DNA from: a virus
IMG/VR virus record: IMGVR_UViG_3300009285_005395
Coordinates: 1 to 26,233 of that record
Length of the DNA stretch: 26,233 nucleotides
Direction: 5' to 3' (one strand)
The translations under genes were made by a program, and so were the position numbers. Shown here one piece after another: positions 6,934 to 22,381 of the stretch. A model generated the notes under the pieces. The model did not search any database and was not told where the DNA came from. It worked only from the letters and a program-made list of their open reading frames with translations. Numbering within the stretch: the first letter of the stretch is position 1; each line of letters opens with the position of its first letter.

Positions 6934-6952
6934 CAAACAGCGCTACGGATTA

Positions 6953-6990
6953 GAAAGAGGGGCACCTGGTAACGGGCGCCCCTCTTTCTT
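6953..6990 (+). terminator. Strong rho-independent terminator closing the head module
   Basis: An 11-pair perfect stem, GAAAGAGGGGC (6953-6963) with GCCCCTCTTTC (6978-6988), has a 14-base loop and TT after the stem. The downstream T run is short (interrupted by G), but the stem is very stable. It lies just before a promoter, so it isolates the head operon from the accessory cassette. Confidence 0.75.
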
Positions 6991-6991
6991 G

Positions 6992-7021
6992 TTGACATAC
7001 CCGTAAAACTATAGGTATACT
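6992..7021 (+). promoter_or_regulatory. Near-consensus sigma70-type promoter for the accessory cassette
   Basis: TTGACA (6992-6997) and TATACT (7016-7021) are separated by 18 bases. This is a full -35 consensus and a five-of-six -10 box, placed between a terminator and the first cassette gene, which has AAAGGAG at 7040-7046 before its ATG at 7057. It is the clearest bacterial-type promoter in the window and would give the cassette transcription independent of the phage head operon. Confidence 0.8.
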
Positions 7022-7035
7022 AAGTCTGTAGACTT
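7022..7035. promoter_or_regulatory. Palindromic operator candidate at the cassette transcription start
   Basis: AAGTCTGTAGACTT is an inverted repeat of six-base arms around a two-base centre. It begins one base after the -10 box and covers the expected transcription start (about 7028), a usual place for a repressor to bind. The cassette also encodes a small ribbon-helix-helix-like protein (9781-9945), which could be the regulator, but nothing links them directly. Confidence 0.5.
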
Positions 7036-7056
7036 GCCTAAAGGAGACGAAAGCGA

Positions 7057-9276
7057 ATGCCGACGATAGCGTGCTGTATGGTAGTGAAAAATGAGGAAGA
7101 GACGCTGGTTGCTGCACTGGAGAGTGTCAAGGATATCGTAGACGAGATTGTTATTGGCGTGGACGACTCATCTACCGATCATACGCCACAGATTGCTGCT
7201 CACTATGCCAGTCCCGGTAAGTGCTTCAGCTTCACTTGGCGTGATGACTTTTCATGGGCTCGCAATGAAGCCATCAAGCGAGCTAGTTCCGACCTGATCT
7301 TCATTCTCGACGGGCACGAGTTCGTTCCCCCTGATAGTCATCCGGTTGCCGAAGTGATGACGAAAATGCGGCACGTCAACGTCTTTGAGCAGCGCACATT
7401 GACTCCGAGGTCGTTTATCGAACAGGTGCGGATGTCGGATTTCCCGCGCCCTTACGATGTTGTCTGTATCAATCTAGCAATGAACACCGACTTCTTTGGC
7501 ATTCCACAGTTGTTCTTTCTGCAACCGCGAATCTTCCGCAATGATGGCAAGATCCATTACTCGTCTGCTGTTCATAACTACGTTGACGGGTATCCAAGAG
7601 ATCATGCAATGGGGTGCCCTGAAGGGATTATTGTCCACAACATGCCTCCGAAGCGCGAGGCGCAGCGCAAGGCGCAGCGCAAGCGAATGAATGTTAGCGG
7701 GCTCTACGCAGATCATCGTACTAACCTGAATGATGCGCGTCCATTATTCTATCTTGGTAACACGCATGCCGATCTGGGAGACTCAAAGAAAGCCGCCTTC
7801 TGGTACCGCAAATACCTTAAGAAGAGTCGCTTCGGAGAAGAGCGCTATCAAGTTTTGCAACAGCTTGCGATTCTTGAGTACAGACATTTTGGCAATCACA
7901 ACGCCGCTCGTGAGCTTGTTATTGAGGCTACGCACCTGTGTTGGAATCGCAAGGAGCCGTACATCTTGCTGGCTGAGATTGCGTACGAGACAAAGCAATA
8001 CGACGAGGCAATTCATTGGCTCGACTTGGCCGATGAAATGCCAGCGCCGGTTACGGTTATGTTCCTTCAAGGACCAGTATACAGTTACATGTGTGATCTT
8101 AAGCGTATGGAGTGCTTTGCGGCTCAAAACAACCTAATGATGGCAATACGCTGTTCTGAGCGCGTGCTCTCCTGGCGACCTGGAGATCCGCAGATCATCG
8201 ACATACTGCAAGGTTACAAGAACACCTTGCGTCGTCAGTCAAATGGTACGGGCGACAAGAACATGCTAATCGTGGACAAGATCATGTCGTTTACCGAGCC
8301 TATCGCCAAGGCTTTCGCTGGGGAGTACACTGTTGTGCGTCGCCAGGAGTGTGACGAGCGTTGGAAGGGCTGGGCTGATGTGGCGTGGTTTGAGTGGTGC
8401 GATGAGAACATCGCCCTGTGGAGTCATCATCGCTGGAACGTGCCCGTCATTTGCCGCCTGCACAGCTACGAGTCGTTCGGCAATATTCCACCGCAAGTTG
8501 ATTGGGACAATGTCGATCATCTTGTCTTCGTGGCCGACCATATACGCGACAAGTTCAATCTACAGTGGCCGGATATTCAAAAGCATGTTGAGCAATCGAC
8601 GATACCCAATGGAGTTGACGCAAGCCTGTATGCGTTTCGCGAGCGTGGGCACGGAAAGACCATAGGCTATCTTGGTTACTTCAACAACAAGAAGGGTATT
8701 GATCTTCTTGTGCAAGCCATGTGGTCGCTTCCAGACTACATGTTTCGTTGCGCTGGACAATTTCAAGATCCGCACCTGCTGTATTATTTCCAGACATCCG
8801 TCGCGGAGATGCACAACGTCATCTTTGATGGCTGGATCCAACCTGAGCGCAAGGATGAATGGCTAGAGGAAGTGGATTACCTTATCTCACCTAGCATCGT
8901 GGAGAGCTTCGGCTTTTCCATTGCCGAGGCAATGTGCAAGGGTATAAAGCCGCTGATTCACCATCGCGTTGGGGCTATATGGCATGAGACATGGCGAACG
9001 ATTGACGACTTACGGAAAATGCTAGAGGGTCCGTACGAGTCTAGAGAGTATAGGTCGCATATCGAGCGCTTTTATTCGCTCGAACACCAGCTGCAGGCGA
9101 CGAAAGCGCTTGTTAAGTATCTTGTCGGGCAGAAGCACGGCAAGATGTCGTCACTTCAACAGGCACAGTTCAAGGCGTCTCCTATTGTCGCGCAGTTACG
9201 GCCGTTCACATCTGATCTGCCTGTGGCTTCTCAAGATGTCGAGAAGATAGTGCAGGGAGATGAGGTTCACGGATGA
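7057..9276 (+). CDS. Bifunctional glycosyltransferase: GT2 - TPR - GT4 fusion
   Basis: This 739-residue protein combines two catalytic folds. Residues 1-~205 are a GT2 (GT-A) domain starting IACCMVVKNEEETL, with nucleotide-binding D36-D37 in VDDSSTDHT and a DxD-like D85-G-H-E88. About 225-385 are TPR-like helical repeats (YLGNTHADLGDSKKAAFWY; YILLAEIAYETKQYDEAI), the layout of SunS-like GT2-TPR enzymes that modify proteins or peptides. About 400-690 are a GT4 (GT-B) enzyme: IPNGVDASLY (~517), GYLGYFNNKKGIDLL (~538) and the donor-site helix ESFGFSIAEAMCKG (~616). The two could add successive sugars, with the TPR region binding a protein acceptor; that is inference. It is the first gene behind the 6992 promoter and overlaps the next start by four bases. 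GT2-TPR is common; joined to GT4 it is unusual. Confidence 0.87.
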   Translation: MPTIACCMVVKNEEETLVAALESVKDIVDEIVIGVDDSSTDHTPQIAAHYASPGKCFSFTWRDDFSWARNEAIKRASSDLIFILDGHEFVPPDSHPVAEVMTKMRHVNVFEQRTLTPRSFIEQVRMSDFPRPYDVVCINLAMNTDFFGIPQLFFLQPRIFRNDGKIHYSSAVHNYVDGYPRDHAMGCPEGIIVHNMPPKREAQRKAQRKRMNVSGLYADHRTNLNDARPLFYLGNTHADLGDSKKAAFWYRKYLKKSRFGEERYQVLQQLAILEYRHFGNHNAARELVIEATHLCWNRKEPYILLAEIAYETKQYDEAIHWLDLADEMPAPVTVMFLQGPVYSYMCDLKRMECFAAQNNLMMAIRCSERVLSWRPGDPQIIDILQGYKNTLRRQSNGTGDKNMLIVDKIMSFTEPIAKAFAGEYTVVRRQECDERWKGWADVAWFEWCDENIALWSHHRWNVPVICRLHSYESFGNIPPQVDWDNVDHLVFVADHIRDKFNLQWPDIQKHVEQSTIPNGVDASLYAFRERGHGKTIGYLGYFNNKKGIDLLVQAMWSLPDYMFRCAGQFQDPHLLYYFQTSVAEMHNVIFDGWIQPERKDEWLEEVDYLISPSIVESFGFSIAEAMCKGIKPLIHHRVGAIWHETWRTIDDLRKMLEGPYESREYRSHIERFYSLEHQLQATKALVKYLVGQKHGKMSSLQQAQFKASPIVAQLRPFTSDLPVASQDVEKIVQGDEVHG

Positions 9277-9749
9277 CCGTAGTTGGCATTGATCCCGGCC
9301 CGCAGTTCAGTGCTTATGTGCTGTTCGATGGAAGTCGTGCGCTTCGCTGCGGAGAGCTTGAGAATGAGCACTTGCTTGATCGGATTGGCTTACTGTCAGC
9401 CGAAATGCTGGCCGTTGAGCAAGTTGTTTCGTACGGAAGGCCTGTAGGGGCCGATGTGTTTGAGACGGTATTCTGGTCTGGTCGATTCATAGAGCACTGG
9501 GAAGTCTTGCGTCATTTACCATGGATTCGCATTCCGTTTAGGGATGTTGGTAGGCATCTCTGCAATGCAGCCTCTGGCATCAAGGAATCGCATGTGCGCC
9601 AGGCCCTTATTGATCGTTTTGGACCATCACGTCTTACAGCCATAGGTGTCAAGAAGCTCCCCGGTCCATTGTACGGCGTGTCGGGGCACAATTGGTCCGC
9701 GCTTGCTGTGGCTGTCACTGCTCACGATCAGAGCTTGACTTTGCTGTAG
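9273..9749 (+). CDS. RuvC-like Holliday junction resolvase / RNase H-fold protein
   Basis: The 158-residue protein opens with VVGIDPGPQFSAYVLF, the first strand and catalytic Asp (D7) of RuvC-like nucleases, and has a second acidic residue E49 in MLAVEQVVSYG. The C-terminal helix has H139-N-W-S142-A-L-A-V-A where typical RuvC has acidic residues; His replaces one Asp in some RuvC enzymes, but the last Asp position appears to be Ser here. Phage RuvC-like enzymes resolve branched DNA before packaging. It may be an active variant or one with lost cleavage. It overlaps the fusion glycosyltransferase by four bases (ATGA). A DNA enzyme inside a sugar cassette is odd and may be a leftover of how the region was acquired. 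Confidence 0.7.
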   Translation: MTVVGIDPGPQFSAYVLFDGSRALRCGELENEHLLDRIGLLSAEMLAVEQVVSYGRPVGADVFETVFWSGRFIEHWEVLRHLPWIRIPFRDVGRHLCNAASGIKESHVRQALIDRFGPSRLTAIGVKKLPGPLYGVSGHNWSALAVAVTAHDQSLTLL

Positions 9750-9780
9750 TGGTATAGTAGTTTTACGATAAGCAGGGACT

Positions 9781-9945: not shown

Positions 9946-9953
9946 GAAAAGCG

Positions 9954-10715
9954 ATGGGTTACAGTAGCCGCGTTTCGATCATTATTCCCACCTTCAACCA
10001 AAACCCGGCGTACCTTCGCGCTGCTTTGCTGTCAGCTAGGCATCAAACGCATTGCTGCGAGATCGTTGTTGTGGACGACGGTTCCGAGCCCAGGCAAGAC
10101 GGAGTGGTTGAGGAAATTCTGCTCGGATATTCAAACGAACAGACACGTGCCGTGTACATTTGGCAGCCGAATACCGGAGTAGCCGGAGCCCTCAACAAGG
10201 GCTTGGAGCTTGCTACGGGAGAATGGGTACAGTGGCTTCCTTCTGACGATCTGTTTGATCTGCGAAAGACTGAGGTCTTTCTATCCTGCGCCGATGCCCA
10301 TCCAGAATTTCGCGTTTGGTACTGCGCCTACGAAGAGGGCATCCCATCGTCAACCCGACTGCTTCCTGCTCCGACCTATTCTGCCCAAGCGTCTTTGTTC
10401 GACGCCCTGAGACGGCATTGCTTCATCAATGCTGCTACTGTCATGTGGCATCGAAGTGTTTTTGAGACGGTAGGCAAGTTCAACACAAACATGACTCACG
10501 CGCAAGACTACGAGTTTCTGTTGCGATGTGCCGAGCAGTACAACTTTGCGGGTATATCCGATGCGCTTGTCCGTAGGCGTATTCATCCAGGTCAGATGCT
10601 TAACACACTGCGCGATCCTCAAGAGGCCAACAAGAAACACCAGGATATGTCGTACATTCGCGAACGCTATGGGGCAGATGGTAACGTCTGGCTTCCTGCT
10701 TTGGAGAAGGCTTGA
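9954..10715 (+). CDS. Family 2 glycosyltransferase
   Basis: This 253-residue single-domain GT-A enzyme begins SRVSIIIPTFNQNPAYLRAALLSAR. It has the nucleotide-binding D41-D42 in VVVDDGS, the metal-binding D98-D99 in WLPSDDLFD, GVAGALNKGLELATGEW before it, and a catalytic-type HAQDYEFLLRCAE (the usual place of the base, an ED/QDxE motif). A GT2 transfers a sugar from a nucleotide donor to an acceptor; donor and acceptor cannot be read. No membrane segments are seen, so the enzyme should be cytoplasmic. It lies nine bases after the small RHH-like gene and three bases before the next glycosyltransferase, with which it is probably co-translated. Confidence 0.85.
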   Translation: MGYSSRVSIIIPTFNQNPAYLRAALLSARHQTHCCEIVVVDDGSEPRQDGVVEEILLGYSNEQTRAVYIWQPNTGVAGALNKGLELATGEWVQWLPSDDLFDLRKTEVFLSCADAHPEFRVWYCAYEEGIPSSTRLLPAPTYSAQASLFDALRRHCFINAATVMWHRSVFETVGKFNTNMTHAQDYEFLLRCAEQYNFAGISDALVRRRIHPGQMLNTLRDPQEANKKHQDMSYIRERYGADGNVWLPALEKA

Positions 10716-10718: not shown

Positions 10719-11549
10719 ATGCGGATCGTAGGCTTCCTCTGTAACTACAATGGCCTCTCTGGCGGACATTTACTGCGGTGTCTACGCTCAATGTCCGCCT
10801 GTACTGATGTAATTGTTGTGTACGACGATTGTAGTACAGAGGTCGTCAGACCGATCTACGAACAGTTCGGTTGTGTTGTTATCTACGGTCTGCGGAATGA
10901 GTTTCACCGTGAGCTGTACCATAAGCAACAGCTGCTTTACGTAGCTCTCACGTTTAAGCCTGATTGGGTCTTGTGGTTTGATAGCGATGCCATCTTGGGC
11001 CGACAGTTTGAGACCCGCGATGGAGCGGAATCCGTGCTGAAGTCTTGCGATACGCAAGGGATTCACTTGCTTCACTTGCATAACCTAAACCTGTGGCGCT
11101 CAAATCGCTCGTATCGTGTGGATAACGCCTTCAACGATCTGTGGCATGGCGTTTGGTGGAAGAATACAGGGGAGCTTCATTATAGTCCCGTCGCCAAGCT
11201 GCATCAGAAGCAGTACCCACAGTTCTGGATTGATCGTGACCGAGTTATTTGCAATTCTAAGTACCCCAATGAATCCGGCAAACTCATTCATTTTGGTTTC
11301 GCTACTGACGACGACATTGCGACTAAATACTTCAAGTACCGTGAGAATGGTCAGACCGGTTGGCCGCTTGATCGTCTTGTTTCAGAGGATGACAAGCTCG
11401 AACTGCAAGTTGCTCCCGATGAATGGTTCCCGGAGTGGTATTTGAAGGAGCGAGAAGCTTCTCACTATCCTGGTTCACGCTTCAGTCCGGAGAATATGGC
11501 CTGTTATGACAACTTCGACCAATGGAAACAAAAGGAGTCGCCATCTTGA
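10719..11549 (+). CDS. GT-A fold glycosyltransferase (GT2-like)
   Basis: The 276-residue protein begins MRIVGFLCNYNG and has D36-D37 in VVYDDCSTE and a clear DxD motif D88-S-D90 in LWFDSDAIL, the two metal/nucleotide-binding sites of GT-A enzymes. The following segment (RELYHKQQLLYVALTFKPDWVL before it; WHGVWWKNTGELHYSP after) fits a GT2-like transferase acting on an unknown acceptor. GGAGAAGG at 10703-10710 precedes the ATG at 10719, three bases after the previous gene. The stop (11547-11549) overlaps a TTG codon (TTGA), which could restart translation into the small frames beyond. Confidence 0.75.
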   Translation: MRIVGFLCNYNGLSGGHLLRCLRSMSACTDVIVVYDDCSTEVVRPIYEQFGCVVIYGLRNEFHRELYHKQQLLYVALTFKPDWVLWFDSDAILGRQFETRDGAESVLKSCDTQGIHLLHLHNLNLWRSNRSYRVDNAFNDLWHGVWWKNTGELHYSPVAKLHQKQYPQFWIDRDRVICNSKYPNESGKLIHFGFATDDDIATKYFKYRENGQTGWPLDRLVSEDDKLELQVAPDEWFPEWYLKEREASHYPGSRFSPENMACYDNFDQWKQKESPS

Positions 11550-11565: not shown

Positions 11566-11679
11566 ATGATAGGGCGTTGGGTCGGGTATTGGCTTGTCAT
11601 GGTCTTTATGTTCTTCTTTTTGCGCTTTGCCTGGGACGCATCGACATGGCTGATCCAAGTGCTGTACGCGCTGCCGTAG
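11566..11679 (+). CDS. Possible 37-aa small membrane protein
   Basis: An ATG at 11566 opens a frame ending at TAG 11677-11679. The product, MIGRWVGYWLVMVFMFFFLR then FAWDASTWLIQVLYALP, is strongly hydrophobic and would form one membrane helix with a basic N-terminus. A chain of overlaps could deliver ribosomes: AAAGGAG (11531-11537), then TTG at 11546 overlapping the previous stop (TTGA) and coding MTRRAGI, whose stop overlaps this ATG (ATGA). No good ribosome site lies directly before 11566. It overlaps the next gene by 34 bases. It may be chance. Confidence 0.35.
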   Translation: MIGRWVGYWLVMVFMFFFLRFAWDASTWLIQVLYALP

Positions 11680-12290
11680 ACGACGATCTGTTCGGCCCAG
11701 ATGGTGACTATTACTTCCAGCTCCTGCGATTGAAACATCGCTCGCACGAGCAAGTGCTTGCCGATCAGATCATTCATCATGCCTGTAAGGGAGGTTGTCG
11801 AGTTGACGTGCCTATCGAGCGCTCAATAGGTGGCTCAGATAATGCACATACTCTCGCATTATCGGCTGCTTCTTCTTTGCTGAATCTGCAGGTAGAGAAA
11901 GACCATATCTTGAGTTCAACAGGGAAGAGGATCTACCCGGTTATTACTCGTTATCGAGGTTGGCACCTGTCTGTCTTGGAAAGTTGCGCAAGGCAATTCG
12001 ATGCCTTCATTCTTATGTGGCCGATCATTGGGGCGGACGCACTGTCTATGGACATTGTGGGTTGGTGTACAAGGAGCGAGTTGAAGAAAGATGGCTTTCG
12101 GCCTCGAAACGTAGAACCGCCCACGCAGACGATCCCATGGTTTTTTCTGCATCGTATGCCGGAACTCAAGATGCCTCTGTATTACAACAACAGTCGAGCC
12201 GAGCTGAACAGACGCATGCTCGACACTTTGACATACCTACCGAACAATCTTGACTCGATGGTAAAACAACTTACCTGGAGGAGGGCATGA
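11646..12290 (+). CDS. Unrecognised cassette protein, 214 aa
   Basis: I do not recognise this protein. It begins MADPSAVRAAVDDDLFGPDGD and has a helical region (HEQVLADQIIHHACKGGC) and a conserved-looking core: GKRIYPVITRYRGWHLSV, then FDAFILMWPIIGADALSMDI and VGWCTRSELKKDGF, ending near PWFFLHRMPELKMPL. A final GW-C-x-x-x-E-L after a hydrophobic strand recalls some phage PD-(D/E)xK nuclease-like proteins, but the E-x-K expected before RYR is absent, so that is weak inference. The ATG at 11646 (GGGA nine bases upstream) is preferred to a TTG at 11577, because the extension mirrors the small membrane frame. It overlaps the next start as ATGA. Confidence 0.5.
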   Translation: MADPSAVRAAVDDDLFGPDGDYYFQLLRLKHRSHEQVLADQIIHHACKGGCRVDVPIERSIGGSDNAHTLALSAASSLLNLQVEKDHILSSTGKRIYPVITRYRGWHLSVLESCARQFDAFILMWPIIGADALSMDIVGWCTRSELKKDGFRPRNVEPPTQTIPWFFLHRMPELKMPLYYNNSRAELNRRMLDTLTYLPNNLDSMVKQLTWRRA

Positions 12291-12742
12291 TTTTAGATCT
12301 CGGGTGTGGAGCGTACAAGCACGAAGGATCGATAGGTATTGATACGCAGCCGTTCAATGTTGTGGATATTGTTCGCGATCTTCGACGTGGACTGCCGTTT
12401 AGCGATTCGACATGCGATGGAGTTATTGCCAAGCACGTGCTTGAGCACTTCGATGGAGAAGACCTCATCTTTCTTGTCGAAGAAATCTGGCGTGTGCTCA
12501 AGCCCTCCCGTGGAGCGAGTGTCGAAGTTCCCGATGCCTGTAGCCCCAATCGCTACCGCGATCCAATGCACAAGACGAGAGATTGGAGTGCGGACTCCTT
12601 CATGCTTTGGGAAGTCGATCATACAGGAAAGTGGTGGATTGATGTTGGTCCTTCGTACCGACGTCAAGCCAAGTTTCAGGTGCAAAGTACGCTTACAGAT
12701 TCTACCAGCAATAGGTTTTACATACTGAAAGCCATCAAGTGA
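12287..12742 (+). CDS. Class I SAM-dependent methyltransferase (small)
   Basis: This 151-residue protein begins MILDLGCGAYKHEGSIGID: motif I (LDLGCG, residues 3-8) and the acidic end of the second strand (GID-TQ) that binds the SAM ribose. The pattern LPFSDSTCDGVIAKHVLEHF and LVEEIWRVLKPSR are the typical post-I and motif IV/V of the Methyltransf_11 group. The protein begins almost at motif I, so it has no N-terminal cap and is short for the family; the C-terminal half should provide the acceptor site. The product could methylate a sugar made by the cassette. The start overlaps the upstream stop by four bases, with GGAGGAGG-like sequence before it. Confidence 0.82.
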   Translation: MILDLGCGAYKHEGSIGIDTQPFNVVDIVRDLRRGLPFSDSTCDGVIAKHVLEHFDGEDLIFLVEEIWRVLKPSRGASVEVPDACSPNRYRDPMHKTRDWSADSFMLWEVDHTGKWWIDVGPSYRRQAKFQVQSTLTDSTSNRFYILKAIK

Positions 12743-12752: not shown

Positions 12753-13583
12753 ATGGTTGACGTGACGTGCTATACGATTATCAGTCGCGATGTTGGGCTT
12801 CTGGAATGGTGTATTAAGAACGCATGTGTGCGAGCTGGCATGGAACACAATTGGCTTGTCATTGGCTGGGATCCGACGACTGAGGTAAGGGAGTGGTGTA
12901 ACAGGCAAGGCGTTCCTATTCATTCGTTTGAGCCAATACCGCAAGACAGGTTTTTTAGTCGCACTTCATGGTTTCTTCGGAATTTGTACTGTGGATGGAA
13001 CATGGGTTATGCGTATGCTTCGACGAAGTGGGTTGTCCGCATGGGGTCGGATCAGTTCTTTAGCCACAACTGGCTACGAAATCTTATGGAAGCTGCCGAG
13101 AAGCATGGCGAGCGCGGCATCTACCATACATGGACCGTTGAGAGCGACCTGGCTCGTCATTCACGTCACGAGATGCGAAACTGGGGCACTTCCTGGGACG
13201 AGTTTAATAAGACGCAGTTTGACCTATACTCTAATGATTTGATCTATCGCACTGGCAGCACAAAAGCTATTCGTGGCGACGAGTGCGATCTATGGTACCG
13301 ACACCCGGCTCGCGGCAAGCAGCGTCGGCCTGATGGAGTAACTTGGCTGCAAACGAAAGCATTGTGGGGGGAGTTTGGTCCGCTGGAAGATGGAATCAAT
13401 GTCGAAGGAGTGACGGGTGATGTGGCATACATGGACAGACTGTACGATGGCGTTACATCAAGCGGGCGAGAAGTTGCGCCTGTTTGCGGGTATCTGGTAC
13501 CGCGTTCCGTCTCTTACCATCTTGTGCGCGGCGAATCCCGAGACGTGCAAGAATCCGGAGCCCAAGTGGCTCGTATTATGTAA
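12753..13583 (+). CDS. Putative GT-A fold glycosyltransferase
   Basis: This 276-residue protein resembles a GT2-type enzyme but is less typical. It starts VDVTCYTIISRDVGLLEWC (first strand and helix), followed by HNWLVIGWDPTTEVREWC (second strand) and, after YCGWNMGYAYASTKWVVRM, the segment G98-S-D100-Q in the usual place of the DxD motif. HTWTVESDLARHSRH is probably part of the acceptor region, and the C-terminal VNVEGVTGDVAYMDRLY looks catalytic-helix-like. It follows the methyltransferase at ten bases. The evidence is a fold pattern rather than a named family. The stop is at 13581-13583. Confidence 0.62.
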   Translation: MVDVTCYTIISRDVGLLEWCIKNACVRAGMEHNWLVIGWDPTTEVREWCNRQGVPIHSFEPIPQDRFFSRTSWFLRNLYCGWNMGYAYASTKWVVRMGSDQFFSHNWLRNLMEAAEKHGERGIYHTWTVESDLARHSRHEMRNWGTSWDEFNKTQFDLYSNDLIYRTGSTKAIRGDECDLWYRHPARGKQRRPDGVTWLQTKALWGEFGPLEDGINVEGVTGDVAYMDRLYDGVTSSGREVAPVCGYLVPRSVSYHLVRGESRDVQESGAQVARIM

Positions 13584-14611: not shown

Positions 14612-15005
14612 CTGGAATCGACCTTGCCTCATCGTGGACGTGGACGGCACGCTCTGCCCTACGCGGCTGCCCGATCAGTCGTACGCGAATTTGCCGCCCA
14701 TCATCGAGGTGATCGAGAGACTGAGGCAGTACCATGCGGCGGGATGGTACATCATCATCCATACGGCGCGTCAGGAGCGCACGTACGACGGCAACATCGG
14801 GCAGCGCACGGCGCACATGCTGCCCGTGCTGATCGAATGGCTTGACCGTCATCACGTACCCTATGACGAGATCCGCATCGACAAGCCATGGTATGGATTC
14901 CACGGTTTCGCGCTGGACGACAAAACGGTGCCTCCGAAAGTTTTCATCGAACAAACAAGCGAAGAGATACTACAGACATGGCTCCCGATCTTCGCGGTGA
15001 AGTAG
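14601..15005 (+). CDS. HAD-superfamily phosphatase/hydrolase
   Basis: The 134-residue product contains the full HAD set: D13-V-D15-G-T in CLIVDVDGTLC (nucleophile and acid/base), T55 in IIHTARQE, K95 in RIDKPW and D106-D107 in FALDDKTV. It has no room for a large cap, like small capsule-type HAD phosphatases. The GTG start at 14601 is chosen because AAAGGA (14586-14591) is at the right distance and the frame upstream is only a shadow of the methyltransferase. It overlaps that gene's end by 11 bases and the kinase gene by 28. It could remove a phosphate in sugar-precursor synthesis, before or after the adjacent kinase and nucleotidyltransferase. Confidence 0.8.
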   Translation: MLRDWNRPCLIVDVDGTLCPTRLPDQSYANLPPIIEVIERLRQYHAAGWYIIIHTARQERTYDGNIGQRTAHMLPVLIEWLDRHHVPYDEIRIDKPWYGFHGFALDDKTVPPKVFIEQTSEEILQTWLPIFAVK

Positions 15006-15832
15006 TCGGTACGCTGCAGGGCTTCTCTGGATCCAAGTTGCGGATCTGCCGGGACGACGGCATCACCTTCGTTCGCAAGTTCATCAGCAACCCCGAAAGG
15101 CTGTCTGCTGAAGTCGCCAAGATGAAGAGACTGCAGTCTTTGTCTGGCAGACTGTTCGACGTTCCCACCATCTGGCAGTGCGCCTCGACATACTACGAAC
15201 TGGAGTACCTGCGCGGCATCACACTGGAGGAGCGACTGCAAGTTTGCCCCATCTCAGAGGTCGAGAAGTGGGCCAAGCGCTGCGCGGACATCGTACGCCA
15301 GCTTCGCTGCGAGCCCAGCGTCCTGTCTGTCAGCGAGTCAAGCTTCTTGCTCAGGTACCTGGAGCGCGTTGCTGAGAGGTATCCCAGGTACGGCAAGCTG
15401 CTGGAGCGCATCGACTCTCTGGATACCAGCCCATCATTCAGCCACGGCGATCTGACGCTCGACAACATCCTCGTGACTCAGGACGATGAGGTCTTCCTCA
15501 TCGATCCGTCGTGCCACGAGTTCGATACGTACCAGTGGGACATAGCCAAGCTGATGCAGAGTTGCTACTGCGATTGGTGGGAGATGCGCGGAGCCAGAGA
15601 GAATCGTTCCCGTCGGCTTGCCATCTTCTGTAGATTCCTTCTGTCCGAGTTCCTGTTCGACGCCGACTTACAGACGACGGCCCTCTATCTGGCCGTGGTC
15701 TTGCTGCGGATCATGCGCTACGCCTCTAATGCCGGGCAGCGTCAATCTCTGGAAAGCCGGGCCTTCGTCATGCTGGATCAGTACCTTGGAGTCAGGTTGC
15801 CGTTTACCATGGAGGAGTCGAGATGGATCTGA
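14978..15832 (+). CDS. APH/choline-kinase-like phosphotransferase
   Basis: This 284-residue protein has the catalytic loop FSHGDLTLDNILV (H156, D158, N163) and the magnesium-binding D176 in VFLIDPSCHEFDTYQWDIAKLMQ, the signature of the aminoglycoside phosphotransferase / choline kinase family. The N-lobe is short, with F-V-R-K-F as possible ATP lysine region. In LicA-type systems such a kinase phosphorylates a small alcohol or sugar before nucleotide activation by the neighbouring nucleotidyltransferase. The ATG at 14978 (inside the HAD gene's end) gives the recognisable protein; an upstream in-frame start at 14888 adds sequence that shadows the HAD gene. The stop overlaps the next start by ten bases. 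Confidence 0.78.
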   Translation: MAPDLRGEVVGTLQGFSGSKLRICRDDGITFVRKFISNPERLSAEVAKMKRLQSLSGRLFDVPTIWQCASTYYELEYLRGITLEERLQVCPISEVEKWAKRCADIVRQLRCEPSVLSVSESSFLLRYLERVAERYPRYGKLLERIDSLDTSPSFSHGDLTLDNILVTQDDEVFLIDPSCHEFDTYQWDIAKLMQSCYCDWWEMRGARENRSRRLAIFCRFLLSEFLFDADLQTTALYLAVVLLRIMRYASNAGQRQSLESRAFVMLDQYLGVRLPFTMEESRWI

Positions 15833-16536
15833 TCGTTCCGTGCGCCGGGCTTTCCTCGCGCTATCCCGGTACTCTCCCCAAGTACCTGTGGCCGATCGAC
15901 GACAGCACAATGGTGGAGGTGGCCGTCAGTGGCGTCGCGCACTTAGCCAAGCGAATTCTGATCGCCGTCCTCGAAGATCACGACCGCCGATGGCAGGTGA
16001 TCAAGACCATGAAGAAGGCGTTCGACTTCATGCCGTGTGAAGTGTTGTTGCTGCCCTCAGTCACTTCGGGCGAGGCGGAGACGGTGCTCAAGGTGATCGA
16101 GAAGTTCGGTGTTTCCGGCCCTTTCTTCGTCAAGGACTCCGACTCGGCCTTCTGGCCGACTGGCGACACCATCAACTGTGCTCGCAATGGTTTCTGCTGT
16201 TGCCCCGTGTCCGACTATCCGCATCTGCACAATCTCGACGCCAAGAGCTATGCCCAGGTCAACGATCAGGGCTTGCTGGTGGGCGTAGCGGAGAAGTCAG
16301 TCATCTCCGGGCTCTTCGGCTGCGGCGGCTACTTGTTCGACAATTCCGAGGAGTTCAAGCGCGGGTACGGCGAGATGCAGATGCGCGGCGAGCGCTACCT
16401 GTCATTCGTGATTGAGGTCCTACTGTCTCATGGGATCATCTTCCATCCCATCCCCTGTCACGGCTACCGCGACTACGGCACGTTCGAGAGTTGGGAGTGG
16501 ATGATCCATCAGCAGCTAATTAGGGAGTCGCGATGA
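15823..16536 (+). CDS. Sugar-phosphate or phosphocholine-type nucleotidyltransferase
   Basis: The 237-residue protein begins MDLIVPCAGLSSRYPGTLPK: the G-x-S-x-R nucleotide-binding loop and K20 of the GT-A-like nucleotidyltransferase family. D105-x-D107 in FVKDSDSAF fits the metal-binding position. AEKSVISGLFGCGGYLF matches the sugar-binding strand seen in NTP transferases. The family activates a phosphorylated sugar or alcohol as an NDP adduct; LicC and glucose-1-phosphate enzymes are members. With the preceding kinase and phosphatase, it could make an activated donor for the glycosyltransferases. GGAGGAG (15810-15816) gives a clear start. It overlaps the next gene by four bases. Confidence 0.8.
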   Translation: MDLIVPCAGLSSRYPGTLPKYLWPIDDSTMVEVAVSGVAHLAKRILIAVLEDHDRRWQVIKTMKKAFDFMPCEVLLLPSVTSGEAETVLKVIEKFGVSGPFFVKDSDSAFWPTGDTINCARNGFCCCPVSDYPHLHNLDAKSYAQVNDQGLLVGVAEKSVISGLFGCGGYLFDNSEEFKRGYGEMQMRGERYLSFVIEVLLSHGIIFHPIPCHGYRDYGTFESWEWMIHQQLIRESR

Positions 16537-17258
16537 AACGCTGGGCGCTGGTCGTCACGATGCTCGATGAGGTGCAGTCCGTTCTACTGACTCTGCAGCG
16601 CGTCGGCAAGGAATTCGCTTGTATCCGCGTCGTGCAGTCTGGCGAGGAGCCGTACGCCGAGGTGGAGGCGGCCCTGAGTGGGCATCGGGACGCCAGGTAC
16701 TTCTGCCTTCCCGATCTCGATACGCGCACCGACGAGGAGAAGCAGGGGAAGGGCGAGCGCTTCGACATCGGAGCCAGGGCGCAGTCGCGCAACTACTCGC
16801 ACGGCTTCCAGAGCGTTGAGGAAGCTATGGCCGGCGGCTGCAAGGTCAGCTATCTGGTGGGGATTCACGGCGATACGGCGACCATTCATCGCTTCGGCAT
16901 CGAGTGGATCATCCAGAAGATGAGTCTGCACACAGCCAACGTCGGGGTGTCAAGAGCGATGGGGCAGAGTCTTCACGCCGCATCGCTCACGCGCGAGCAG
17001 ATGACCGATCCCGATCATCCCAAGGGCGGCAGGATACAGGACGACACCAACAAAGACTTCATGCCGCAGTTCTTCGTCGCTAAGTCGTCGATGTGCGGGC
17101 GTCTGGCGCACATCGACGTCACCAACCCGTGGTGCATGGAACAGTGCATGGGAGATGCTATTGGCGATGCCAATATGTTCGTTTTCAGCAAGACAGCCTA
17201 TGGCTTTGCTGATGGCATCGTTTATCATTGCCTGTCTCCAAAAGGGTGGAAGCATTGA
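16533..17258 (+). CDS. Putative glycosyltransferase-like protein, uncertain
   Basis: The 241-residue protein starts KRWALVVTMLDEVQSVLLTL followed by IRVVQSG, a GT-A-type strand-helix-strand, and contains RAQSRNYSHGFQSVEEAMA and VSYLVGIHGDTATIHR, where a GD pair could occupy a metal site. A later QDDTNKDFMPQFFVAK segment is also acidic. I infer a glycosyltransferase-like fold from these pieces and the neighbours, but cannot name a family. It overlaps the nucleotidyltransferase by four bases. Its stop overlaps a TTG (TTGA) that probably starts the radical SAM gene. Codon use is G+C-rich, like the preceding three genes. Confidence 0.5.
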   Translation: MKRWALVVTMLDEVQSVLLTLQRVGKEFACIRVVQSGEEPYAEVEAALSGHRDARYFCLPDLDTRTDEEKQGKGERFDIGARAQSRNYSHGFQSVEEAMAGGCKVSYLVGIHGDTATIHRFGIEWIIQKMSLHTANVGVSRAMGQSLHAASLTREQMTDPDHPKGGRIQDDTNKDFMPQFFVAKSSMCGRLAHIDVTNPWCMEQCMGDAIGDANMFVFSKTAYGFADGIVYHCLSPKGWKH

Positions 17259-19312
17259 ACGTCTTCCTATGTGACTTGTCACACGTCACGGATGGGCACT
17301 ATGGCTCGGAGGTGGTGCCGTACGGTGTGGCTTGTCTACGGGCCTATCTTCGCAAGGATGTTAGGGACGAGTTCAACGTTCGCATTTTCAAGGATGTCGA
17401 TGGTCTTAACAGAATATATGCGGTTGAGAAACCTCAGATCATCGGCTTTGCCAACTACATGTGGAATACCGATCTATCGTGTCAAATCGCGCGTCTTGTC
17501 AAGGAAGTTCATCCCGAAACCTTCGTCGTATTTGGTGGTCCCAACTTCCCGTTGGAATCTCACAGGCAAGAGCAATGGCTACGCTCGCGACCGTATATCG
17601 ACGCCTACTTGCAAGGTGATGGTGAGGATCCGTTGCTGAGACTTTGCCGGACCGTGCGAGATCATGGAGCAGAGTACGCCCAGCACGCAGACATCATGGG
17701 CTTGTGTGCCGTGGCCGGGGAGTCTTTTCTGAAGGTTATTGACGGCCAGTACGCAGATGGAACAGATAAGATTCCCAGGATGGCATCTTTGGACTCCATA
17801 CCTTCTCCCTATCTTAATGGATCACTAGACGTTTTTCTTGCCGATCCGCTTCTACTTCCCATGTTGGAGTCAAATCGTGGCTGTCCGTTTACCTGTACCT
17901 TCTGCGCGGATGGCTCGCGCTCTCGCGGGCAAGTGTTCAAGCACTCTCCGGAGCGGATGATTGATGAGCTGTGGTACGTTGCGGCGCGCACTAAGTCGAA
18001 GACCCTAATCATGGCGGACGACAACTTTGGCATGTACGAGGAGGACGTGCGCTTCAGTGAGACATTCCGTTTGGCCCGCGAGCGCTGGGGCTTCCCGCAC
18101 TACGTGGTAGCGGCAACGGGCAAGAACAGGAAGAATCGCGTCCTGCAAGTGGCCGACAACATGGACGGGACGCTGCGTGTGGCAGCCTCCGTGCAGTCTC
18201 TTGATCCCGACGTCCTGACCTTCGTCGAGCGGGACAACATCTCCCAGGAAGACTTGTCCGAAGTCGCTCTCTCGGCGACAAGGTCGAACACATACTCAGA
18301 GTTGATCCTTGGCTTGCCCGGCGACACGCGGGCCAAGCACACGTCTGGCATCCTGCAACTGATGGACGCTGGCTTCGATCAGATCCGCATGCACCAGCTA
18401 ACTTTGTTCGACGGGGCGCGTATCGCCACAGATGCCCATCGCCAGCAGTTCGGGCTTGTCTCACGCCAGCGCGTCTTGCAGAGGTCGTTCGGCCGGTACG
18501 TCTTCGATGGATCTCCTGTCTGCTCTATCGAGACAGAGGAGATTGTCGTTACTCACAACAGCATGTCGCTCCACGACTATTTGTACTGCCGCACCTTCGC
18601 CCTGACGGTGGCCCTGTTCTACAACGACCGGGTGTTCTGGGAGCTTTCTAGATACTTCAGGCACGTTGGACTTCAGTACTCGCAGTTCATCCTGGCGCTA
18701 CACAGTGCGCTGCAGATGCGAGACACCATGCGCTCGCCGCTGTCGGCGGAGTACGCCGAGTTCGCGAAAGCGGCCGAGAATGAGTTCGACTGCCTGTTGC
18801 AGCCGACAGATGAGCTATGGAACAGCCTGGAAGCCGGACGTGTCGGTAACAATCTCCTGTTCAACACCCAGGCACACATCCTCTTTCGCAAGTACTCCGA
18901 TCTCTGCGTGTTTGCCTTCTCTATGGCTCGCAAGTACTTCAGAAGCAAGAGCGTTGCGTACGATGGACATTACCTCTCGCAGTTGGAGCGCTATTGCCTG
19001 CTCAAGAAAGGATGCCTGCATCTGTTCCTGTCCGACTTAAGCTCGCAGGACTTCGATACGGTGGCGACGTTCCTTTACAACTTTGTTGCGATGGAGAACG
19101 CGGACTTCCTTGGACCGCCTATCGTTGGCGACATTACCCTTCGATTCATGTACGATCCCCAGCAGAAGGAACTGCTGGAATCCCAGATTGCCTCTTTTGG
19201 TACTTCTGAGCGAGGTCTGGGGAAGCTTATTGCTCGTTGTCCGATAAGGGAAACATATCGACACGTTCAGATTCTCTTCCGAGACTTTCAGGAGAAAGAT
19301 CATGTGGACTGA
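17255..19312 (+). CDS. B12-binding-domain radical SAM protein
   Basis: The 685-residue protein has an N-terminal Rossmann-like cobalamin-binding type domain (~1-150: VPYGVACLRAYLR, GFANYMWNTDLSCQIARLV, FVVFGGPNFPLE), followed by the radical SAM core with C210-x3-C214-x2-C217 in ESNRGCPFTCTFCADG. LIMADDNFGMYEEDV and SELILGLPGDT continue the TIM-barrel. About 450-685 is an uncharacterised helical extension. Members use SAM and often B12 for methylations or C-C bond changes on sugars, antibiotics and cofactors; the substrate here is unknown. I chose TTG at 17255 (overlapping the previous stop, AAGGGTGG seven bases away) over TTG 17228. The middle of the gene is more G+C-rich than its ends, which is unusual within one gene. 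Confidence 0.85.
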   Translation: MNVFLCDLSHVTDGHYGSEVVPYGVACLRAYLRKDVRDEFNVRIFKDVDGLNRIYAVEKPQIIGFANYMWNTDLSCQIARLVKEVHPETFVVFGGPNFPLESHRQEQWLRSRPYIDAYLQGDGEDPLLRLCRTVRDHGAEYAQHADIMGLCAVAGESFLKVIDGQYADGTDKIPRMASLDSIPSPYLNGSLDVFLADPLLLPMLESNRGCPFTCTFCADGSRSRGQVFKHSPERMIDELWYVAARTKSKTLIMADDNFGMYEEDVRFSETFRLARERWGFPHYVVAATGKNRKNRVLQVADNMDGTLRVAASVQSLDPDVLTFVERDNISQEDLSEVALSATRSNTYSELILGLPGDTRAKHTSGILQLMDAGFDQIRMHQLTLFDGARIATDAHRQQFGLVSRQRVLQRSFGRYVFDGSPVCSIETEEIVVTHNSMSLHDYLYCRTFALTVALFYNDRVFWELSRYFRHVGLQYSQFILALHSALQMRDTMRSPLSAEYAEFAKAAENEFDCLLQPTDELWNSLEAGRVGNNLLFNTQAHILFRKYSDLCVFAFSMARKYFRSKSVAYDGHYLSQLERYCLLKKGCLHLFLSDLSSQDFDTVATFLYNFVAMENADFLGPPIVGDITLRFMYDPQQKELLESQIASFGTSERGLGKLIARCPIRETYRHVQILFRDFQEKDHVD

Positions 19313-19865
19313 GAGCTTCATGCAGATGGTCGACCGTGCTATTATCGAGCGCCTGAAGCAGATACACTACTCCGAGAAAGAACGCCCGGAGGAGGCAAGG
19401 CAGGCCGGTCAACAGGCTGACAAGCTGATGCAGGCGTGCGAATCTTACTTCACGGAATGTCTAGACGGCACAATTCTTCCGAACGTTGGTCGCCATCTGC
19501 GTTTTCATAATCATCGAACGAAGGGTTGTGAGTTGCCTACTACGCTTGTTGGGTGCATTTCCCAGCTTGCGTCGGTGCATGCGGAGTACTGGGAGACGCA
19601 AACACTCGTACAGGCAGTGAAGAAACGGGTTGACGCGGCACGGGGACCTGAGAAGGAGAAATTCTGTCACAGCTTCTATGATCTTCAGCTTGTCCTTGAC
19701 GCTTGCAATCAAAGTCGTAGTGAGATCCGTCAGCGTGGAGACGAGATCTTGTGTGAGTTGCTTGGAAAGAGATACTGGTGGGAGAAGGCTGGGGAGTCAC
19801 ATGATGCCTCGTCTACTTTAGAGTTCAAGGATATTATTTCAGAAGCCGAGATGGGACGGAGATGA
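19302..19865 (+). CDS. Cysteine-containing helical protein between two radical SAM genes, unknown
   Basis: The 187-residue protein (MWTESFMQMVDRAIIERL) is predicted to be mostly helical, with seven cysteines spread along it (ACESYF, TECLDG, KGCEL, VGCISQ, KFCHSF, LDACNQ, ILCELL). No family is recognised. It overlaps the upstream radical SAM gene by 11 bases and the downstream one by four, so it is translationally tied to both and may be an accessory or partner of one of them. GGAGA lies just upstream. Confidence 0.5.
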   Translation: MWTESFMQMVDRAIIERLKQIHYSEKERPEEARQAGQQADKLMQACESYFTECLDGTILPNVGRHLRFHNHRTKGCELPTTLVGCISQLASVHAEYWETQTLVQAVKKRVDAARGPEKEKFCHSFYDLQLVLDACNQSRSEIRQRGDEILCELLGKRYWWEKAGESHDASSTLEFKDIISEAEMGRR

Positions 19866-20860
19866 CTGACTTTCGTCGTATTTCCTTCACTGCTGCCAAT
19901 GCGATTCCATTCAAAGTAGCTCGTCATGCGGACCTTCAGGGCAGCTTGCATGAGGGGAGACTGATTCCAATCCATGCTCAATTTCTTCCAACAGAGCGGT
20001 GCAATCTAGGCTGCACGTGGTGTTCATGTGCCAATGACTCGCGGCGTACGACGATGATACTAGAGGATGTTCAGAAGCTAGTTCGCATCCTCAGGATTTG
20101 GGGCTGCCGGGCCGTTACTATCACGGGCGGCGGAGAGCCGCTAATGCACCCGCAATTTAGCGAGATCTTGCAGATCTGGGCCGAAGCTGGAATCGAGATT
20201 GGTCTAGTTACGAACGCCCTTCTCTTTCCGCATCGAGTCAAAATCGCCTGCGTCCTGGAACTATTGACATGGTGCCGTATTTCCATTTCGGATGATAGGC
20301 CTGGACTGTGTAAGGGGGGCGATCTCGTCCAGGCTATCGACTATGCTACTGATCTTGCGCCTGGTGTGGATTGGGCTTTCAGTTACGTCGTAACTCGGGA
20401 GTTCGACTTAGACAAGTTTCTCTTCTCTATCCTCTACGCTACTGACCGTGAGTTCACGCACATGCGAGCCGTATCTGACCTCTTTGATTTGGACAACGTG
20501 CCTGAGATGGACAGCATACGCAGCCAAGTGCGAAGGGCTGGAGTTGACGATGGTATTGTTGTGTACCAGGGGCGGAAAGATTACGAGCGCGGAGATCGCA
20601 ACTGTCGTATCAGCTTGATTAAGCCGGTGATTGGGGCTGATGGACGCGTCTTTCCTTGTTGTGGTGCGCAGTACGCTCTAAAGACCCCTACGAAGAACAT
20701 GCCTGACGAGTTGTGTATGGGCACTATCGACGATCTCCCCCGGATCCTGTCCGAGCAAAACCACTTCAATGGCTCCGTCTGTCATCGCTGCTATTATGGT
20801 GAGTACAACCGCATGCTGTCGGCTTTGATCGTTCCGCTTGAACACGTGAACTTCATTTGA
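19862..20860 (+). CDS. Radical SAM protein with SPASM-like C-terminal region
   Basis: The 332-residue protein has the radical SAM cluster C47-x3-C51-x2-C54 in ERCNLGCTWCSC, followed by TITGGGEPLMHP (GGE motif for SAM) and GLVTNALL. The C-terminal end carries further cysteines (RNCRISLI, GRVFPCCGAQYA, VCHRCYYGEY), as in SPASM/twitch domains that bind auxiliary Fe-S clusters. Such enzymes modify peptides, sugars or other substrates by radical chemistry; the target is unknown. It is the last gene of the cassette, overlapping the previous gene by four bases, and is followed by a possible promoter and a strong terminator. A SPASM-type enzyme in a phage sugar cassette is unusual. Confidence 0.82.
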   Translation: MTDFRRISFTAANAIPFKVARHADLQGSLHEGRLIPIHAQFLPTERCNLGCTWCSCANDSRRTTMILEDVQKLVRILRIWGCRAVTITGGGEPLMHPQFSEILQIWAEAGIEIGLVTNALLFPHRVKIACVLELLTWCRISISDDRPGLCKGGDLVQAIDYATDLAPGVDWAFSYVVTREFDLDKFLFSILYATDREFTHMRAVSDLFDLDNVPEMDSIRSQVRRAGVDDGIVVYQGRKDYERGDRNCRISLIKPVIGADGRVFPCCGAQYALKTPTKNMPDELCMGTIDDLPRILSEQNHFNGSVCHRCYYGEYNRMLSALIVPLEHVNFI

Positions 20861-20886
20861 CAATAGGATCCATCAGTTCGTAGATT
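20857..20886 (+). promoter_or_regulatory. Possible promoter for a small RNA
   Basis: TTGACA at 20857-20862 overlaps the radical SAM stop. Eighteen bases later, TAGATT (20881-20886) matches four of six -10 positions. The spacing is the same as in the cassette promoter at 6992. The downstream region ends at a terminator with no coding frame. The -10 box is weak, so this is a candidate only. Confidence 0.3.
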
Positions 20887-20892
20887 ATAGAT

Positions 20893-20968
20893 GTAGCCTC
20901 CCCGGCTACCGCGTAACTCCCAACTGAAAGAGCCCTGCTGTCCACAACGACAGTAGGGCTCTTTCTTT
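20893..20968 (+). ncRNA. Candidate small RNA (about 76 nt)
   Basis: From the expected start of the weak promoter to the terminator lie two hairpins: GTAGCC-TCCCC-GGCTAC (20893-20909) and the terminator stem (20926-20965), separated by 16 bases. It has no open frame. It does not look like a tRNA (no cloverleaf or T-loop). The RNA is inferred from promoter-like sequence and structure; it could instead be the 3' end of the cassette mRNA. Confidence 0.25.
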
Positions 20969-20969
20969 C
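20926..20969 (+). terminator. Strong rho-independent terminator closing the cassette
   Basis: GAAAGAGCCCT plus CTGTC (from 20926) pairs with GACAG and AGGGCTCTTTC (to 20965), giving about 17 pairs including one G-T pair, with a short loop and TTT after the stem. It is the strongest terminator in the window and lies 65 bases after the last cassette gene. It isolates the cassette from the tail transcription unit. Confidence 0.82.
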
Positions 20970-21004
20970 CCCCCTCCTTTTTTCATCAGTAAAAAAACTT
21001 ACGC

Positions 21005-21044
21005 CCGATAATCTTCAGTAGGCACCAATACTGAGGAGGATGGT
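21005..21044 (+). promoter_or_regulatory. Possible regulatory region before the epimerase/tail genes
   Basis: CCGATAATCT (21005-21014) matches the motif at 2075 and is followed by AGTA and GCAC as there. GATAAT could be a -10 box but no -35 is found. TCAGTA (21015-21020) and TACTGA (21029-21034) form an inverted repeat, and GAGGAGG (about 21033-21039) is the ribosome site for the next gene. The function is inferred from position after a terminator. Confidence 0.3.
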
Positions 21045-21335
21045 ATGACAGACGATCTCAAGGCTCTCGTGGCGGAAGCTATGGCGAAATACTCGGGATC
21101 CGACGCCACAATTATCGAGGGCGCTACTTCCGAGTCCCTTGAGCGAGCTTCCGGTGTTGTCATCGGCGTTACGCCTAACCGTAGTCTGGCTTTGTCCTTC
21201 ATGGATCGCGGCTGGGGCATGATCGGGTGTGCTGATGGATACGTCGTACATATACACAAAGACGTCCAAAAGCTAATGAGGATGGCTCCTTCGACTCCTG
21301 TGGAGCCCTACTCTAAGAGGAGAAAGAGCAAGTGA
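21045..21335 (+). CDS. Small protein of unknown function, 96 aa
   Basis: This protein starts MTDDLKALVAEAMAKYSG and has a short helix, then strands (ATIIEGATSESLERASGVVIGV; RSLALSFMDRGWGMIG; GYVVHIHKDVQKLM) and a basic tail (SKRRKSK). No family is recognised. A strong GAGGAGG precedes the ATG at 21045. The stop overlaps the GTG start of the epimerase (GTGA), so the two are probably translated together. Confidence 0.55.
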   Translation: MTDDLKALVAEAMAKYSGSDATIIEGATSESLERASGVVIGVTPNRSLALSFMDRGWGMIGCADGYVVHIHKDVQKLMRMAPSTPVEPYSKRRKSK

Positions 21336-22381
21336 AGATCCTCATAACGGGTGGTGCTGGTTTTGTAGGATCGAATCTGGCAGTCTACTTGTCGGAATCG
21401 GGTTTCGATGTGTCTGTGATTGACAACCTCGTGCGTCGGGGATCCGAACTAAACATCCCCCGACTACGGGACGCGGGCGTCAGCTTTCGACACGGAGATG
21501 TGCGGAACGCTGAAGATCTTTTTGATGCTAAGGCGGATGTCGTGCTAGACACCGCCGCCCAGCCTTCAGCCATCGACGGCTATAAGAATCCTACTTTCGA
21601 CTTTAGCAACAATGTCGTTTGTGTGGCGAACGTGCTGGAGATGTGCCGACGTATCGGGGCCGGACTCATCTTCTGGAGTACGAACAAGGTCTATCCGCTC
21701 TCCTCAGTCCATGCTCAGGAGATTCAAGAATACGCTACGAGGTATGTCTCGTCTTTCCCGATTGATGAAAAGACGCCGCTCGACGGCGGCGACCGCTCGA
21801 TCTACGGCATGACGAAGGTTATGTCCGACCTGATGGTGCAGGAGCATGCTGACGCTTTTAGTATCCCTGCCGTAATCAACCGCTTCTCGTGCCTTTGCGG
21901 CCCGTGGCAGTGGGGCAAGCCGGAACAAGGGTGGGTGGCTTGGTGGCTAATCGCCCACCAACTAGGTCTGCCGCTCACATACATCGGTTACAAAGGCAAG
22001 CAGGTGCGTGATGTTCTTTACATGTCCGACCTCTGCCGACTGATCGAACTCCAGATTCAGAAGCTCGGCAAGGGTGGAGCAGAAGTCTACAACGTCGGCG
22101 GCGGCAAGTATTCCAGTCTCTCGCTGGTTGAATGCACTGCCTTATGTCAGCAGATCACAGGTGAATGCGTGCCAATCACGTTCGAGTCAGAGCCACGTCG
22201 GGCCGACTTCTCAGTCTATATCTCCGACACGCGCAAAGTTGAAAAGACTTACAACTGGTACCCAACGGTGCTAGCAGAGGACGCTCTCGAATTGATTGAT
22301 CGATGGGTGGTGAACAATCTTGACACGCTGCGGACACTCTACGGACAGCCTGTATTGCAGTTTGCGACGGAGCATGCCTGA
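21332..22381 (+). CDS. NAD-dependent epimerase/dehydratase, CDP-paratose/tyvelose 2-epimerase-like
   Basis: The 349-residue extended short-chain dehydrogenase has the NAD-binding GGAGFVGS (residues 7-14), the catalytic Y158-G-M-T-K162 motif and the earlier WSTNKVYP strand in place of the usual S/T position. STNKVY, RFSCLCGPWQWGKPEQGWVAWW and GKQVRDVLYMSDL are features I associate with CDP-paratose 2-epimerase (tyvelose synthesis). The exact sugar nucleotide is inferred. The gene lies after the cassette terminator and uses a GTG start overlapping the previous stop. Its stop (22379-22381) overlaps the next gene's ATG by one base, tying a sugar gene to the virion connector genes. Confidence 0.8.
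   Translation: MKILITGGAGFVGSNLAVYLSESGFDVSVIDNLVRRGSELNIPRLRDAGVSFRHGDVRNAEDLFDAKADVVLDTAAQPSAIDGYKNPTFDFSNNVVCVANVLEMCRRIGAGLIFWSTNKVYPLSSVHAQEIQEYATRYVSSFPIDEKTPLDGGDRSIYGMTKVMSDLMVQEHADAFSIPAVINRFSCLCGPWQWGKPEQGWVAWWLIAHQLGLPLTYIGYKGKQVRDVLYMSDLCRLIELQIQKLGKGGAEVYNVGGGKYSSLSLVECTALCQQITGECVPITFESEPRRADFSVYISDTRKVEKTYNWYPTVLAEDALELIDRWVVNNLDTLRTLYGQPVLQFATEHA

Follow-up and report, generated by a model that had tools for sequence, protein, structure and literature searches.

Why should a tailed phage keep a long block of sugar enzymes beside the genes for its own particle, and what would their product be attached to? The question arises from a 26,233-base virus record (IMGVR_UViG_3300009285_005395), the whole of which is called the window here. 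A preliminary description of this DNA had read the block as a means of making and attaching an unusual glycan, and this is now well supported, although calling it a whole pathway was too strong.

Setting and borders of the cassette

The head module occupies positions 2-6933. It encodes a portal protein (phrog_113), an F-like morphogenesis protein, a maturation protease that includes a coiled coil, a scaffold-like protein and the major capsid protein (MCP; 4790-5719, plus strand; phrog_1005, E 5e-73), whose gene is followed by three small ORFs. As previously described, the head genes end at a terminator and are followed by a strong promoter. A rho-independent hairpin (6952-6990, plus strand; 12-bp GC-rich stem and T run, -31.4 kcal/mol, z -6.97) closes the head operon, and a sigma-70-type cassette promoter, recognised by consensus match only, lies at 6992-7021 on the same strand (TTGACA-18-TATACT, 11 of 12 positions). 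From this promoter to position 22381 we count 17 ORFs, not the 18 genes claimed earlier, all on the plus strand. Sugar enzymes account for 13 of the 17, comprising five glycosyltransferases, two methyltransferases, a HAD phosphatase, an APH-like kinase, a nucleotidyltransferase, a B12-radical-SAM methylase (the B12 enzyme), a SPASM-type radical SAM protein and an SDR. All of the enzyme families that had been named are present, including two radical SAM enzymes and an epimerase; the other four ORFs show no clear sugar signature.

One of these four, at 9273-9749, encodes a RuvC-like Holliday-junction resolvase (phrog_1770, E 5e-11), a passenger and not a glycan gene. Its homologue (59%) holds the same place in one related contig, G015, and lies on the opposite strand and elsewhere in another, G003, so RuvC moves independently of the cassette. 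The remaining three have no clear sugar function. We assign no function to u14 (11646-12290, start corrected from 11577), which has no Pfam or PHROG match and a 37% homologue in G015. The product of u22 (19302-19865) is helical in its model and weakly similar to DUF4254, and a search with its predicted fold gave no significant structural match. The small protein u24 (21045-21335) has no family match and a 36-42% homologue at the same place in contig L056.

The adaptor genes expected after the cassette were found. The first gene of the constant tail module, at 22381-22881 on the plus strand, encodes an adaptor-like protein, with 31-64% homologues in the same position wherever a related contig extends this far, and it is followed by a neck/tail-completion gene (PF05069, phrog_26) and by a 400-aa tail-region protein without a family match. 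A transposon-like insertion was rejected for the absence of long direct repeats at the flanks of the block, and a search of the sequence gave no tRNA or known RNA element. A second promoter-like site (20857-20886; TTGACA-18-TAGATT, 10 of 12) precedes the small gene and the epimerase, where genes come and go among relatives.

Recurrence of the cassette in related phages

The cassette characterises a phage lineage and is not peculiar to one contig; its gene set is modular between relatives. G015 (IMGVR 3300032138_000066) repeats the MCP, the three small ORFs, the GT2-TPR-GT1 glycosyltransferase described below (66%), RuvC, the glycosyltransferases GT2b and GTc, and u14. L056 repeats the methyltransferase MT17, the nucleotidyltransferase, u22, a radical SAM gene, u24, the epimerase (71%), the adaptor and the tail. 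Nearly the whole cassette, from GT2-TPR-GT1 through to the tail, is found in a single piece in the 38-kb G011, and overlapping parts occur in G001, G003, G016/G017, G018, G019 and L062. The reading frames are kept across contigs at 27-72% amino acid identity, and in all genes compared the third codon position has diverged more than the first two; these frames are thus more than chance. The three small ORFs also lie between the MCP and GT2-TPR-GT1 genes in G002, G003 and G015, and in four contigs the latter gene comes directly after the MCP gene and three small head ORFs.

The tail side of the cassette is constant and its left neighbour is not. The position between head and tail, as first described, is seen in the window, and the head-side junction recurs in G002, G003 and G015; in G001 and G016/G017 the cassette instead follows replication genes. 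All contigs with more than about 1 kb of left flank have some version of it ahead of the tail module, except L064 and L066, which end inside an insert of the G011 type. In two more distant capsid relatives, L006 and L007 (MCP identity 33-35%), no cassette interrupts the stretch between capsid and adaptor genes. The GT2-TPR-GT1 gene is absent from what has been sequenced of G001, G016 and G017, which are fragments, and the stretch seen of G016-G018 has no B12 enzyme, kinase, MT17 or epimerase. In G019 (L036) the B12-radical-SAM gene is reduced to its C-terminal 108 aa and the nucleotidyltransferase is shortened; the sugar pathway seems to be decaying there. G011 carries in addition another methyltransferase and an ORF that we read as sulfotransferase-like, although it has no family match.

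The preliminary description had allowed that a bacterial surface-polysaccharide island might have been misassembled into the contig. Misassembly is ruled out, since the same junctions recur in independent, divergent viral contigs. We also rejected a bacterial island: a genome scan with the B12 enzyme finds bacterial relatives, with almost no other cassette gene adjoining them. When the products were searched against phage sequences, as had been suggested, the gene order proved to be shared with uncultured viral contigs and with no cultured phage; among 50,697 phage records, DNA-level and protein searches found no isolate with the cassette, and gave single-domain weak matches and generic epimerases only.

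Several local rearrangements were seen in these contigs. A 130-aa ORF beside the epimerase of G011 (L028:9316-9708) resembles part of the MCP (25% over 99 aa; phrog_29, E 0.003) and is a capsid-domain-like orphan within the cassette. At L028:11113-12800 of the same contig, a u20-like stretch and the N-terminal stretch of MT17 are locally duplicated, giving a 197-aa fusion of the MT17 N-terminus to a coiled coil; the N-terminal motif common to MT17 and this ORF looks like the result of local duplication. An insert of ~4.9 kb (L029, about 1600-6490; G011 20600-25490) separates the second radical SAM gene of G011 from the adaptor gene. It consists of short ORFs, most of them on the minus strand, and of repetitive sequence rich in Pro and Thr, and is also present in L064 and L066. 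Three adaptor-gene homologues stand in tandem at L067:460-1896.

Enzymes for building and transferring the glycan

The first cassette gene (7057-9276) encodes a 739-aa bifunctional glycosyltransferase with a GT2 domain (Pfam, E 1e-18), TPR repeats and a GT1 domain (E 4e-10), which we propose as a protein-glycosylating starter enzyme. The solved structures nearest to its GT2 domain are GmaR, a flagellin O-GlcNAc transferase (9e-19), and SunS, a glycopeptide S-glycosyltransferase (1e-13), both matches spanning only the first ~100 residues; the GT2 domain is joined to TPR repeats, as in GmaR-type protein glycosyltransferases. The DxD-like motif of the domain is DGH, and the motif [IV][LV]DGHEF is present in all five homologues. 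Identity with the SunS equivalog (TIGR04195) was rejected at 51.9 bits against a curated NCBIfam cut-off of 350, and the likeness is one of working in the same way only. Two further enzymes carry PF00535, GT2b (9954-10715; E 5e-20, with 51-60% homologues in five contigs) and the GT2-like GT2d (12753-13583; E 5e-7, with a conserved RMGSDQFFS block). Between them GTc (10719-11549), of GT-A type, keeps YDDxSTE and WFDSDAxLG motifs in six homologues and has a weak phrog glycosyltransferase match (E 0.025). The fifth, u20 (16533-17258), has no sequence match and a PDB profile search was also empty, but its AlphaFold model (pLDDT 83, pTM 0.86) has a GT-A fold. Foldseek placed COLGALT1 first (E 4e-8) and also returned GnT-I, WrtF and SpsA, together with nucleotidyltransferases that include CMP-sugar synthetases of the same superfamily; TM-scores near 0.5 speak for fold, not function, and on this model u20 is a probable glycosyltransferase. 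The two methyltransferases are the SAM-dependent MT15 (12287-12742; PF08241, E 1e-7), with 47-56% homologues in most contigs, and MT17 (13706-14611, start corrected from 13688), a rhamnosyl/CmcI-like O-methyltransferase (PF13578, E 8e-10; PF04989, E 5e-8) with 56-57% homologues.

The first of the supply genes encodes a small HAD phosphatase (14604-15005), whose nearest solved structure is 1xpj (E 7e-36) and which also matches the capsule biosynthesis protein 9iqw (E 9e-5). Next come an APH-family small-molecule/sugar kinase (14978-15832, start corrected from 14888 by homologues; PF01636, E 6e-7), with conserved HGDxxxDN...LID and no match of its profile in the PDB, and a sugar-1-phosphate nucleotidyltransferase-like protein (15823-16536; phrog_3980, E 2e-14; NDP-sugar pyrophosphorylase 4evw, E 3e-4). 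The B12 enzyme (17228-19312) has a B12-binding domain (PF02310, E 9e-9) followed by a radical SAM domain (PF04055, E 4e-8), the architecture of cobalamin-dependent radical SAM enzymes; TokK (E 6e-62) and CysS (E 8e-41) are nearest, its CxxxCxxC motif (CPFxCxFC) is invariant in 12 of 12 aligned relatives, and it is predicted to be a C-methyltransferase. It is not a KedN5 equivalog, scoring 168.7 bits where the curated NCBIfam cut-off for that subfamily (NF033712) is 700. The second radical SAM protein (19862-20860; PF04055, E 3e-13) has SPASM-like C-terminal cysteines and is nearest to MoaA (E 6e-9) and cytosylglucuronate decarboxylase (E 1e-6); viperin (NF038283) was rejected at 38 bits against a curated cut-off of 180.

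The last cassette gene (21332-22381) encodes an SDR of the CDP-tyvelose 2-epimerase (TyvE) family. The TyvE structures of Thermodesulfatator (9RL0, E 5e-46) and Salmonella (1ORR, E 1e-43) are its best solved matches by more than 20 orders of magnitude in E-value (next enzyme, 7e-21). In TyvE the catalytic residues are T124, Y164 and K168, and W207, W210 and F211 contact CDP (PMC7851689). Aligned to both structures, the SDR keeps the catalytic triad as T117, Y158 and K162 and two of the three aromatics as W201 and W204; at the position of F211 it has a tryptophan, W205. The SDR is CDP-tyvelose-2-epimerase-like and may epimerise a CDP-sugar at C2; the genes for CDP-paratose supply are absent from the cassette.

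Bacterial relatives of the B12 enzyme (38-42%) are located in polysaccharide loci. In L044 the relative adjoins a gene like glucose-1-phosphate cytidylyltransferase (RfbF; 292 bits, cut-off 300) and one like CDP-glucose 4,6-dehydratase (RfbG; 184 bits, under the cut-off of 278). In L045 it adjoins RfbH (627 bits, cut-off 423) and GmhA- and GmhB-like genes; in L048 a relative at 32% lies beside a NeuB-like gene, and in L037 a distant phage homologue adjoins an RfbH-like aminotransferase. In Clostridia, Oscillospiraceae and Ruminococcaceae MAGs of animal-gut bacteria (L051-L055), three to five B12-radical-SAM homologues are clustered per locus. To judge from these neighbourhoods and the TyvE-type SDR, the simplest theme would be a CDP-activated deoxysugar that gains a carbon methyl group. 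The cassette encodes no nucleotide-sugar 4,6-dehydratase and no 3-dehydrase for a CDP-3,6-dideoxyhexose; in the absence of the former from the window, either the host supplies the precursor or the true substrate is another NDP-sugar. Thermodesulfatator TyvE accepts all NDP-glucoses (PMC7851689). The cassette is thus not self-contained as had been claimed: it is modular between relatives, lacks this dehydratase and needs cobalamin and precursor sugars from the host. More specifically, and only tentatively, we propose that the phage enzyme methylates a carbon of a CDP-activated deoxysugar and that this sugar becomes part of a multi-sugar, O-methylated glycan on virion proteins; this would be a branched-chain sugar pathway tied to host cobalamin.

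Target of the glycan and its wider meaning

On balance, we consider it moderately likely that this uncultured lineage of tailed phages uses the cassette, part of its late structural operon, as a soluble, cytoplasmic, sequential pathway for virion-protein glycosylation. In such a pathway the phosphatase, kinase and nucleotidyltransferase would activate a sugar, the B12 enzyme would methylate one of its carbons with host cobalamin, and the second radical SAM enzyme and the SDR would remodel it, drawing on host CDP- or NDP-sugars. GT2-TPR-GT1 would use its TPR part to recognise a virion protein and start the chain with one or two sugars; the other four transferases, of GT-A type, would lengthen it and the two O-methyltransferases would cap it, all in the cytoplasm prior to assembly. 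The genes, their families, the conserved catalytic residues, the lack of membrane parts and the synteny were observed; we infer the acceptor, reaction order, sugar identity and purpose, whether shielding or adsorption. The MCP and the three small head genes (4790-6933), which share a block with the GT2-TPR-GT1 gene, are candidate acceptors.

The preliminary description left the choice between virion and host surface open. A virion protein is the probable target, because the GT2-TPR enzyme resembles protein glycosyltransferases such as GmaR and SunS, a simple hydropathy scan detects no clear membrane segment among the cassette proteins, and the genes belong to the structural operon. The sole high hydropathy value, in u14, falls upstream of its likely start. 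In FlmG the TPR modules bind the protein acceptor, and flagellin glycosylation proceeds independently of an OTase by soluble sequential transferases (PMC7591256, PMC9638930). A virion-protein target is also favoured by an otherwise different contig (G012; L039:7645-9291), in which a GT2-TPR-methyltransferase fusion lies near a gene for a 1765-aa collagen-like protein, upstream of the tail sheath gene. Against such a pathway stand the contigs whose sequenced part has no GT2-TPR-GT1 (G001, G016, G017), the missing 4,6-dehydratase and 3-dehydrase, the DGH motif and the ~100-residue coverage by GmaR and SunS.

The glycan might instead alter the LPS or O-chain of the infected cell, excluding competing phages or blocking re-adsorption of progeny. 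Pelagimyophages carry a similar gene mix, with glycosyltransferases near tail-fibre genes in a hypervariable region that also holds radical SAM cassettes, and the authors who described them favour host O-chain modification (PMC7029224); the polysaccharide loci around the bacterial B12-enzyme relatives point the same way. Yet the cassette genes lie in a late structural operon, the first enzyme resembles a protein glycosyltransferase, and none of the cassette family matches is a membrane-anchored glycosyltransferase, GtrA-like flippase, polymerase or lipid-carrier sugar transferase, GtrB-like profiles being matched weakly by soluble GT2 domains only. We consider a host-surface target rather unlikely. 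It is improbable, too, that the cassette is two systems, GT2-TPR-GT1 decorating the head and the rest, beside the tail module, decorating tail proteins or fibres. Such a division would fit the company that GT2-TPR-GT1 keeps with head genes in G002, G003 and G015 and the other genes with the tail module in G001, G016-G019, L056 and L062, as well as the DNA and lysis genes that sometimes separate the two parts, but both form a single same-strand run in the window and in G011. Base modification in phages uses glycosyltransferases and sometimes radical SAM enzymes, and the transferases could in principle glycosylate modified bases of the phage genome. This we regard as very improbable: the families in the window include no thymidylate-synthase-like, hydroxymethylase or base-kinase gene, the transferases are unlike the DNA glucosyltransferase families, and TPR repeats suggest a protein partner.

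Decoration of a virion protein would have precedents. Mycobacteriophages, like the cassette phage, encode glycosyltransferases, and their capsid and tail-tube proteins are reported to carry glycans, with shielding proposed (Freeman et al. 2023, cited in PMC12619734). The Maravista announcement mentions two glycosyltransferase genes; the cassette has five, together with sugar activation, an epimerase, O-methyltransferases and two radical SAM enzymes. The pelagimyophage host-recognition region is likewise environmental, combines glycosyltransferases and radical SAM genes near tail genes and diverges in a modular way, but those phages are myoviruses whose transferases are mainly of GT8 type, with linkage to tail fibres (PMC7029224). 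In the unrelated lineage described here the cassette keeps one place, ahead of the adaptor gene, and its proposed starter enzyme is GT2-TPR-GT1. That enzyme shares a GT domain, TPR repeats and predicted soluble transfer to a protein acceptor with GmaR, SunS and FlmG, and differs in its extra C-terminal GT1 domain and in having DGH for the usual DxD. TokK, CysS and KedN5 have the B12-binding and radical SAM domains and CxxxCxxC of the B12 enzyme but act in antibiotic biosynthesis, whereas its nearest bacterial relatives are in polysaccharide loci. Hydropathy scan and family searches found in the cassette neither the membrane flippase nor the membrane-anchored transferases of gtrABC-type phage O-antigen conversion.

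Phage virion glycosylation and marine-phage islands of glycosyltransferase and radical SAM genes are thus known already. What appears new is this combination, of which we found no description in the open-licence literature and which would probably be far more elaborate than the known particle glycosylation by one or two genes. If our reading is correct, some phages make and remodel their own sugar, not borrowing those of the host, and decoration of the particle would be coupled to vitamin B12. The cassette would offer a small set of soluble enzymes for glycosylating proteins with several sugars, and its B12 enzyme, with bacterial relatives in polysaccharide loci, may represent a branch of the B12-radical-SAM methylases that acts on sugars. 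It would also provide a testable case for the role of virion glycans in the environment, where antibodies explain nothing.
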